From contig CM049404.1 in NCBI GenBank assembly GCA_026929865.2, positions 9,435,501-9,499,500 of the forward strand: DNA of 64,000 bases. The letters are read 5' to 3'. Below, piece after piece: positions 30,601 to 32,722 of this stretch. This DNA comes from Hyperoplus lanceolatus (lineage: Eukaryota > Chordata > Actinopteri > Uranoscopiformes > Ammodytidae). The translations under genes and the position numbers were made by a program. The notes beneath the pieces are model-generated. The model was not told the origin of the DNA, searched no databases, and worked only from the letters and a program-made list of their open reading frames with translations. How positions within the stretch are numbered: position 1 is the stretch's first letter; the number at the start of each line of letters is the position of its first letter.

Positions 30601-32722
30601 AAACTAGGGTTTTAAAAGGAATACAGGAAGAAATATACAGACATTGTCAAGACTAGAGAGCCATCAGCCTTTATGGCTTGATTTACTATTGTGCTATTAT
30701 GAAGAAGCCATCAGCCGCGGCCCTCTCATTGGTTCCTGTGTGCTGTGCTGACCAACATGTCTTCTCTCATCAGTGTGCTTCTCCTTTGAACTTTGTGGTG
30801 AGGTACAAACCTGACGAGCAGCCCCTGCTCCGACCTCACCACGATGCCTCCACATTCACTATTAACATAGCTCTCAACAGCAAGGACGTTGACTACAAGG
30901 TACTAGAAGCTGCAAGACATGATGTCGCAGGTGGTGTGCATCCTCTCGCTCTCCGATTCTCTACTCCCTCTGTGGGAGTGAATGCTGGAGCGGGTGATGC
31001 TGATGCTTTTCCTTTATTGACAGGAGCTGTGACGTTGGTGGTGTACCGGAGCCTACACGTGTACATGCTCTATGCCTGTGGCAAGATGTTTCTATGCGAA
31101 TGCTTGCATGACTCTTCTCTGTCTCTGTGTTTGCAGGCTCTGTTTGACTTGGCCTTTATAGTTAGATATAGGCCAGATGAGCAGCCATTTTTGAGACCGC
31201 ACCACGACGCCTCCACATTCACTATTAACATTGCACTCAATCAAAGGGGCCCTGATTACGAGGTGAGTGTGTTTCAGCAGGTTGCAACACCAAAGGTTAT
31301 TTACTCAACATAAAATCCCATTAGCTGGTTGTTGAATGACCTTAAATCTGAATTTGCATTATGCTGTTCAGATAATTTTGGAATGAGACAGTTATGAGTT
31401 TGTCAGTTTGTTCACTTGGCTCGATGGTGTTTTGTGCCCCCAACGGAGCCTTCAAGACAGCGCTGTCTGGAAGGCCCTATCCCCTAACTTTAACCCTAAC
31501 CCTAACCTTAACTAGCGCTGTCTGGAAGGCCCTATCCCCTAACTTTAACCCTAACCCTAACCTTAACTAGCGCTGTCTGGAAGGCCCTATCCCCTAACTT
31601 TAACCCTAACCCTAACCTTAACTAGCGCTGTCTGGAAGGCCCTATCCCCTAACTTTAACCCTAACCCTAACCTTAACTAGCGCTGTCTGGAAGGCCCTAT
31701 CCCCTAACTTTAACCCTAACCCTAACCTTAACTAGCGCTGCCTTGAAGGCTCCGTTGGGGGCACAAAGCACCAAACGCTGTTCACTTGAAGCCAGGATGT
31801 GTTGCTTTTCAACATGTTGGACTTTGCCCCCCCCCCCCCCCTGTTGGCAGGATAAAAAAAGGCAGCATCCTGTCAGACTAGAGACATAGAGCAGCAGTTC
31901 AAACAGTGTTTGAAAAAGCATGGTGCTGAAATCAGACTCATATCATTCAAAGTGGAATGCCATCATATTCCTGGCATGTACATCTACATCCGTGGGGTTT
32001 CAAATCTTCCATCTGCTGTCTTCTATGCATGATATAATAAGGCTGAAGCTAGGGAGCCTCTTAAAATGTTGCACTCATTCAATCTAACACTTCTGAGTAT
32101 TTACATTTTTAACGTGTGCATTATATAGTATGTGTGATCATTGATAATTATGACAAAACCAGTGGTTTTGCTTGTTTATAGGCCATTAACTAGAAATTAC
32201 TTATAGGCCTACTCTAAATCCTCAAGTAAAAGACAGTTTTACAATTATGGCAGGCATGAATAAGTTTCAATTTTGTTAAAATCCTGTAAATGGACATTAC
32301 ACTGAAATGATCAAGACAGCATTCGAACCAGGACCAAGTGCTGAGTTTAAATTATTCGAAAAAAAGTAAAAAAAAAGGTCTATCTTTTGCGTAAGCCTTC
32401 TTTTAAAAAAAAGACGAACTTTACATTAAATTTTTAAAAATGTTTTAAGCCGACAATAAGCTTCTTACTTAAGAAAAAGGTGTGTAATTCAAGCTTGGCT
32501 AAAAGGAGCACAACATGGTCCTTTAGTTGTCAAGAGAAATAAGCTTGTGTTGTGTTGTGACTGCAGGGTGGCGGATGCAGGTTCCTCCGCTACGACTGCT
32601 CAGTTGCCGCTCCTCGTAAAGGCTGGTCCATCATGCACCCGGGCCGTCTCACCCACTACCACGAAGGCCTGCCCACCACCGCCGGCACACGCTACATCAT
32701 GGTGTCCTTTGTGGATCCCTGA
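15622..32722 (+). CDS. plod1: Procollagen-lysine 2-oxoglutarate 5-dioxygenase 1 (lysyl hydroxylase 1)
   Basis: Exons: 15622-15712, 17982-18073, 18322-18455, 19631-19794, 20497-20609, 21079-21142, 24253-24350, 25867-25968, 26092-26223, 27633-27757, 27904-28008, 28157-28282, 28696-28837, 29051-29164, 29373-29438, 29607-29711, 29884-30030, one of 30774-30899 or 31137-31262, and 32567-32722. The result is 733 aa (human 727). It hydroxylates collagen lysines in the ER, using Fe(II), 2-oxoglutarate and ascorbate. Seen: a signal peptide (about residues 1-23), an N-terminal glycosyltransferase-like domain with FIDSYDVVF, an accessory domain, and a C-terminal dioxygenase domain with PHHDAS (HxD Fe ligands) in the duplicated exon, then HYHEGL and GTRY in the last exon. 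It ends VSFVDP, the family terminus. The intron after 28008 uses a GC donor. Several introns hold mobile elements. Confidence 0.96.
21434..22389. mobile_element. Non-autonomous pogo/Tc1-mariner-like element with transposase remnant
   Basis: It lies in plod1 intron 6. The termini are inverted: GTAGGGGAGAACGGGG after CA at the left, and the same after CT on the reverse strand at the right. The insertion is flanked by TA on both sides (21432-21433 and 22390-22391). Inside, an ORF at 21742-22047 contains [17 protein letters not shown], which resembles the C-terminal end of pogo/Tigger DDE transposases. The DDE core is absent, so it is non-autonomous. The superfamily call rests on the TA target site, the CAG-type start and this remnant. 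Confidence 0.75.
23375..23670. mobile_element. Palindromic MITE, copy 1 (plod1 intron 6)
   Basis: The two halves are inverted around about 23520. ATATCTCCTCATGATC and ACACAGCCTG at the left pair with the CAGGCTGTGTATTAACAC and GGGAGATATTC blocks at the right. The end GACAACAAGCATTCTCCAGA is shared with the copies near 33490, 35783, 37880 and 58100. Confidence 0.7.
24097..24205. repeat. (TG)n microsatellite next to the plod1 exon 7 acceptor
   Basis: About 109 bp of uninterrupted TG, flanked by imperfect GCGT/GTAT units. It ends 47 bp before the acceptor (AG at 24251-24252). The polypyrimidine tract is therefore mostly GT-rich (UG in RNA), with only GTTTCC just before the AG. Confidence 0.97.
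24601..24780 (+). mobile_element. Full-length tRNA-derived SINE with 14-bp target-site duplication
   Basis: A 180-bp element between perfect 14-bp direct repeats (24587-24600 and 24781-24794, TAAAATCTTTTTCA). It has a Pol III A box TAGCTCAGTTGG at 24613-24624 and B box GGTTCGATTCC at 24666-24676. The tail contains CCCCATTTCAACTCTGTCTC and an AATAAAGC near the 3' end, then an A-rich run. The intact duplication suggests a fairly young insertion. It lies in plod1 intron 7, sense to the gene. Confidence 0.92.
26335..27355. mobile_element. Non-autonomous DNA transposon (hAT-like) in plod1 intron 9
   Basis: Termini AGGGTGTATTCACAC (26335-26349) and its exact reverse complement (27341-27355) bound about 1.02 kb. 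Subterminal sequence is rich in GTTCGTTTG/CAAACGAAC-like motifs in both orientations, typical of hAT MITEs. I saw no transposase ORF and no clear 8-bp duplication, so the superfamily is uncertain. Confidence 0.7.
28009..28156 (+). other. GC-AG intron in plod1 (intron 11)
   Basis: Only the donor GCAAGT at 28009-28014 keeps the frame with the acceptor at 28156. It yields EQNL/PVVAPM, the same length as the human protein there. The nearby GT at 28013 would give a frame-shifted junction. GCAAGT is the classical strong minor donor. Confidence 0.75.
30774..30899 (+). CDS. plod1: plod1 exon 18a (first copy of the Fe-binding exon)
   Basis: A 126-nt, phase-0 exon with acceptor CTCTCATCAG at 30764-30773 and donor GTACTA at 30900. 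It encodes 42 aa beginning [17 protein letters not shown] and containing [16 protein letters not shown]. The HxD iron ligands are intact. The start (LNFVVRY) looks more like PLOD2/PLOD3 than PLOD1. Its donor is weaker than that of 18b. Confidence 0.9.
31137..31262 (+). CDS. plod1: plod1 exon 18b (second copy of the Fe-binding exon)
   Basis: A 126-nt, phase-0 exon with acceptor TGTTTGCAG and donor GTGAGT at 31263. It encodes [17 protein letters not shown], then [16 protein letters not shown], ending GPDYE. The FDLAF start and the DYE end match vertebrate PLOD1, so this is the ancestral-type copy. It shares 28 of 42 residues with 18a by my alignment, including an unbroken 18-residue core from LRPHHD. 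Confidence 0.93.
31429..31778. mobile_element. TIR element with an internal telomere-like minisatellite
   Basis: It lies in plod1 intron 18. The near-perfect inverted ends share TTTGTGCCCCCAACGGAGCC and continue to CAGCGCT. It is flanked by a 10-bp direct repeat TGTTCACTTG (31419-31428 and 31779-31788). Between the ends are five apparently identical 55-bp units (31460-31734), each starting GCGCTGTCTGGAAGG and carrying CCCTAACCCTAACCTTAA. No ORF. A 9-10 bp duplication would suit a Mutator-like element, but the superfamily is not proven. Confidence 0.8.

Follow-up and report, generated by a model that had tools for sequence, protein, structure and literature searches.

Tandem homologous exons encoding two iron ligands of lysyl hydroxylase 1 in plod1 of Hyperoplus lanceolatus, a plausibly mutually exclusive pair

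Why would a gene for lysyl hydroxylase 1 (LH1) keep two copies of the exon that encodes two of its three iron ligands, and would both copies be used? This question is raised by the plod1 gene of Hyperoplus lanceolatus, located in the window analysed here, a stretch of 64,000 nucleotides within an 807-Mb assembly. Between exons 17 and 19 it contains two homologous phase-0 exons of 126 nt, 18a and 18b, each flanked by AG and GT (Table 1). The original prediction of such a tandem pair carrying the HxD ligands was borne out, with 29 of 42 residues and 86 of 126 nucleotides identical. The pair was also picked up independently by a repeat finder (116 nt, 73%), and the similarity is not a matter of chance. 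Lying side by side, homologous, equal in length and alike in phase, 18a and 18b belong to the tandem duplicated exons.

Table 1. Positions in the window of the plod1 features discussed in the text (a slash marks an exon border)
Feature	Position	Strand	Remarks
Probable plod1 exon 1, signal peptide	15622..15712	+	completes the 733-aa frame
plod1 exon 17	29884..30030	+	phase 0; ends in K, aligned to the cleft lysine of mimivirus L230, K804 (numbered by counting from Y814)
plod1 exon 18a	30774..30899	+	126 nt, 42 aa; HxD = residues 22 and 24; 2-OG tyrosine = residue 11
Intron 18a-18b	30900..31136	+	237 nt, phase 0, open; weak donor AAG/GTACTA
UGCAUG (Fox-type motif)	31105..31110	+	overlaps a TGAC resembling a branch point for 18b (its A at 31111, 26 nt upstream of the exon)
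plod1 exon 18b	31137..31262	+	126 nt, 42 aa; donor GAG/GTGAGT, highest of 19 scored
plod1 exon 19, last coding	32567..32722	+	GGGC, third Fe ligand (aligned to LH3 His719), stop

The gene extends on the plus strand from the probable exon 1 to the stop at 32722. Reading frames were assembled from exon 1, exons 2-17 and exon 19 with the chosen copy or copies of exon 18. They encode 733 aa with one copy and 775 aa with both, reproducing the lengths originally predicted, as well as 691 aa with neither copy and 854 aa when the 237-nt intron is retained, and each version has the terminal stop only. The intron between exons 11 and 12 (28009-28156) is best read as GC-AG (CCT/GCAAGT), and the whole frame is open with it. 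The iron triad, the 2-OG residues and the full-length architecture of 733 aa place the protein in the lysyl hydroxylase (PLOD/LH) family, and the C-terminal 175 aa of the b form align to positions 539-715 of the LH3 chain (E 1e-89).

Omission of both copies would remove the iron site, as had been claimed, leaving an in-frame 691-aa protein without the HxD motif. A switch between inclusion of either exon and skipping of both, in which the N-terminal domains are kept, is compatible with the frame, but it leaves the upkeep of two diverged copies unexplained, and we regard it as extremely unlikely. A second alternative is that both exons are included, or that the intron between them is retained, so that a variant of 775 or 854 aa is made whose hydroxylase domain is disrupted. 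Both forms are in frame, and the intron, equivalent to 79 codons, is open in the frame of 18a and 18b; in a Markov simulation this openness alone has a chance probability of about 0.011, a figure that does not yet include the one-in-three length condition and concerns a feature that was spotted post hoc. The double-exon protein also scores higher against Pfam PF03171 (61.0 bits) than isoform a (45.2) or isoform b (46.5), so that Pfam gives no argument against double inclusion. On the other hand, such variants would have strands duplicated inside a compact barrel, and the constraint on 18a described below points to catalytic use. We therefore consider this alternative very unlikely and prefer the use of one exon 18 per protein.

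For comparison with known enzymes, residue i of exon 18 was equated with residue 645+i of LH3, using His667 and Asp669 as anchors. According to this alignment the HxD ligands (equivalents of H667 and D669), the 2-OG tyrosine (LH3 Tyr656) and the equivalent of Thr672 are the same in both exons, and both have F at the position of L230 Tyr831. The claim that both copies are open with their iron and 2-OG residues intact was thus upheld. A Thr672 glycosylation mutant is described to break the LH3 dimer, and Tyr831 of L230 is assigned to the dimer pocket (PMC6082870, PMC5802723). Since the iron, 2-OG and dimer residues are kept in both, both isoforms should be active hydroxylases. Their Pfam dioxygenase scores are also similar.

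The exons differ at 13 positions (1-4, 6, 8, 12, 18, 36-39 and 42). The first block of differences comes immediately after the terminal residue of exon 17, aligned to the collagen-cleft lysine of L230. When this lysine was replaced (K804E), the Km estimated for collagen rose from 2.6 to 9.6 uM, while dimerisation and peptide activity were kept (PMC5802723). The last block precedes the GGGC sequence, whose cysteine corresponds to LH3 Cys691, a residue that positions 2-OG (PMC6082870). The differences thus avoid the catalytic residues and cluster just behind the cleft lysine and ahead of the 2-OG cysteine, with the rim varied around a catalytic set that has been kept.

A search of the same genome with exons 18b and 19 identified seven places among the best candidates, i.e. 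exons 18a, 18b and 19 of plod1, and one exon 18 and one exon 19 on each of two other contigs, C23 and C21. The best-scoring candidates therefore include three lysyl hydroxylase family genes. None of the seven places is a spliced retrocopy, as all are separate exons. The match row of the C21 exon 19 contains one TAG, located outside the aligned, stop-free stretch of 51 exon residues. Exons 4-9 and 11-19 of plod1 match in order in both other genes (19.8 kb of each), and no second copy of exon 18 was detected on the sense strand of these two 19.8-kb regions at E 0.01. Among the three family genes found, only plod1 showed two copies of exon 18. Because of its similarity to human LH3, with 34 of 42 exon 18 residues shared, the C23 gene is called plod3. 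The C21 gene we take to be plod2. The names of all three, plod1 included, are provisional and rest on similarity and partly on human sequences and gene neighbours, and in the same way 18b is presumed to be typical of PLOD1, judged against mammalian sequence. Long open frames near plod1, at 10357-12852 on the minus strand, presumably correspond to KIAA2013, which we take to be a neighbour of PLOD1 in mammals. Open frames are also present at 35341-37475 (minus strand) and 47491-47832 (plus strand), with an assumed resemblance to TPX2 and to a Rho GTPase exon, respectively.

The affinity of 18a proved to be less clear than the original prediction, which placed it closer to PLOD2/PLOD3. This part stands for plod3 by raw identity, as 18a shares 31 of 42 residues with plod3 and 29 with 18b, and 90 versus 86 of 126 nucleotides, with a local 18a-plod3 match of 78% over 116 nt. 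It does not stand for plod2 (25/42), and likelihood slightly prefers 18a with 18b, namely by 2.0-2.5 units in a codon analysis with one omega and by 3.0 or more units in a protein analysis of five topologies to which human LH3 and L230 were added. In the AU test, three alternative topologies remained at 0.17-0.18, and the grouping of 18a with plod2 was narrowly rejected (0.045). These comparisons do not clearly mark 18a as an exon of PLOD2/3 type.

The raw identities would fit an origin of 18a from plod3, by ectopic conversion or insertion, rather than as a tandem copy of 18b. However, the silent divergence between 18a and plod3 (dN 0.20, dS 1.78) is as saturated as that between 18a and 18b (NG86 dN 0.25, dS 1.79); the codon and protein likelihoods point to 18b by about 2 to 3 units, albeit not significantly (AU 0.17); and a run of seven identical codons shared by 18a and 18b is not matched throughout by plod3. 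An origin from plod3 is, in our judgement, quite unlikely. Between 18b and plod3, dN is 0.25 and dS is beyond the NG86 correction. The pair is an old duplication, because its silent sites are about as worn as those between the paralogous genes plod1 and plod3, although saturation gives no date. A recent duplication or an assembly artefact is ruled out by the 32% nucleotide difference together with the saturated silent sites. The run of seven consecutive identical codons lies in the catalytic core and has a P of 0.010 under saturation, whereas 15 identical codons in all are unremarkable (P 0.21). Within the core 10 of 13 codons are identical, versus 5 of 16 shared-residue codons outside it (Fisher p 0.025, with core borders picked by eye). 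This could reflect local gene conversion in the core, or nucleotide constraint, and is suggestive only.

A codon model of exon 18 from 18a, 18b, plod3 and plod2 gave an omega of 0.04-0.06 on the 18a branch, and an omega of 1 on this branch was rejected on all three topologies (2lnL 10.95, 11.83 and 11.98; p about 0.001 or less, 1 df). The omega values are rough, as several branch lengths hit the bound of 6. For 18b only the low omega shared with the other branches (0.07-0.08) was estimated. The view that selection has kept both copies is thus supported, for 18a by its own branch and for 18b by the shared value only.

Donor sites were scored on a generic donor matrix. The donor of 18b scores 11.45 bits, the best of 19, while that of 18a scores 3.42 bits, the lowest of the 18 GT donors; the single GC donor scores 0.25. 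Consensus splice sites had been claimed for both exons, and this holds for AG and GT on both, but not for the donor of 18a, which is poor. As 18b has the strongest donor and 18a the weakest GT donor, 18b looks like the default exon and 18a like a regulated one. The weak donor could also be the first sign that 18a, a functioning alternative exon through most of its past, is now being lost or is hardly used. The final residue of 18a is K, absent at this position from the other five aligned family segments (E in 18b, plod3 and human LH3, Q in plod2 and T in L230), and the omega test, which averages over the whole 18a branch, is compatible with a recent death. But 18a has neither stop nor indel, its AG and GT are intact, its averaged constraint is strong, and other plod1 exons have weak donors as well (exon 7, 4.61 bits; exon 3, 5.04 bits). 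A dying 18a is thus unlikely, and we prefer to regard it as a functional, regulated exon.

The branch-point motif is better in 18a (CTGAC, 23 nt upstream) than in 18b (ATGAC, 26 nt upstream), where the branch point is a guess, its TGAC being without the leading pyrimidine of yUnAy. The UGCAUG that overlaps this TGAC is one of eight in the 14,773 nt of plod1 introns, with a chance expectation (post hoc) of 0.13 per 237 nt and 0.02 per 40 nt. Its location upstream of the downstream exon follows the layout known from FGFR2, albeit with one site that could be due to chance, and by analogy a Fox protein may bind there. The intron 18a-18b also contains a good-looking acceptor at 31024 (ttgacag/GAG), with TGA as third codon; we do not claim it as a poison acceptor, considering that 22 such decoys are found in the 14,773 intron nt and 0.35 are expected per 237 nt. 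No gathering-level Rfam match was found in 29800-33000. In the intron 18b-19, a 55-nt minisatellite of 5.3 copies with TAACCC-like stretches (31459-31750) is enclosed by a 40-nt inverted repeat, the arms of which (31425-31464 and 31734-31773) are 95% complementary; from its sequence the whole of 31425-31773 looks like a small inverted-repeat transposable element that has expanded there.

Mutual exclusion of 18a and 18b is plausible. A frame-shift device is absent, as 126 nt is divisible by three and double inclusion stays in frame. Steric exclusion was not supported: the likeliest branch-point A of 18b, recognized by motif only, lies 211 nt from the 18a donor, and three yUnAy motifs at 103-120 nt from this donor, beyond upstream AGs, are likewise above the limit of about 50 nt between donor and branch point given in PMC7969005. 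Competing RNA pairing was not detected either, since the best intron-intron duplexes (-61.8, -62.6 and -56.6) each fall inside the spread of their 12 Markov-resampled controls. With frame, distance and RNA pairing enforcing nothing, exclusion would need splicing regulators, and some double inclusion is possible. As FGFR2 is switched by regulators, the missing device lowers, but does not exclude, membership of the pair among mutually exclusive exons.

We propose that an old duplication of the exon with two of the three LH1 iron ligands left two functional alternatives, of which a mature mRNA would normally contain one. Exon 18b, with its strong donor, would be the default, and 18a would be used where a regulator weakens 18b, the best candidate being a Fox-family protein acting on the UGCAUG over the 18b branch-point region. 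Both proteins would be active hydroxylases that differ at the rim beside the cleft that binds collagen and in the loop leading to the 2-OG cysteine, and this difference could tune which collagen lysines are modified, making tissue or substrate specificity conceivable. Taken as a whole we find this explanation likely. Counting against it are the donor of 18a, weak enough for rare use, double inclusion being in frame, and the absence of an RNA structure signal.

A wider evolutionary reading can be offered tentatively. At positions 6, 8 and 37, 18a shares N, V and K with plod2, plod3 and LH3, where 18b has A, I and R; position 6 of L230 is A, which counts against a simple ancestral reading of 18a. 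Scans of viral contigs yielded no viral relatives for use as outgroup. Human PLOD1 presumably has FDLAF at exon positions 3-7; if this is right, 18b would correspond to the exon of mammals, and 18a may be older than the change, which is a lead only. It is possible, though rather doubtful, that the pair is an ancient vertebrate feature in which 18a kept the plod2/plod3/LH3 rim and 18b took the PLOD1 form, that mammals lost 18a, and that in fish a swap under Fox control shifts LH1 between two preferences for collagen lysines.

What decides the choice of collagen lysines by LH1, LH2 and LH3 is poorly understood, and a natural pair of isoforms that share the rest of the enzyme and diverge at 13 residues around one active site would provide a ready-made test of this choice. 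It would also make plod1 the second collagen hydroxylase, after P4HA1, that is altered by alternative homologous exons, with two of the three iron ligands in the swapped segment, and could mark a striking gain or loss that separates fish from mammals. No alternative catalytic exon pair of PLOD1 was found among the titles and abstract openings covered by the literature search, with subscription papers, supplements and annotation databases outside this search, and human PLOD1 peptide strings gave no match in papers.

Within the same enzyme family, PLOD2 also has an alternative exon, 13A, which we take to be an inserted cassette outside the dioxygenase core, and not a homologous swap as in plod1. 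The nearest precedent is exons 9a and 9b of P4HA1 (collagen prolyl 4-hydroxylase alpha-I), likewise a collagen hydroxylase with two alternative exons, albeit a different gene and family, whose exons 9a and 9b presumably do not carry iron ligands. PMC11868403 describes 9a and 9b as mutually exclusive, with one per mRNA, and hypoxia as raising the 9a/9b ratio, whereas for plod1 exclusivity is predicted from sequence. OGDH, with exons 4a and 4b, is another enzyme with tandem alternative exons, in which exclusion is enforced by branch points, in human at 25-41 nt from the donor (PMC7969005), unlike the 211 nt in plod1. In FGFR2, Fox2 bound to UGCAUG in the intron between exons 8 and 9 represses the downstream exon and favours the upstream one, and Fox-1/ASD-1 do likewise for exons 5A/5B of worm egl-15 (PMC2880598). 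The putative Fox motif in the intervening intron of plod1 matches the FGFR2 layout, although FGFR2 and egl-15 encode receptors, not enzymes. Finally, a human survey reports 236 tandem duplicated exon substitutions, mostly ancient, in which ligand residues are kept at 80.6% versus 53.1% for other residues; its main text contains no occurrence of PLOD or P4HA (PMC9741552). The plod1 pair resembles these events in being homologous, with 29 of 42 residues kept, including those for iron and 2-OG. While the human events overlap ligand sites less than expected (PMC9741552), the plod1 pair has both HxD ligands inside the exchanged segment.
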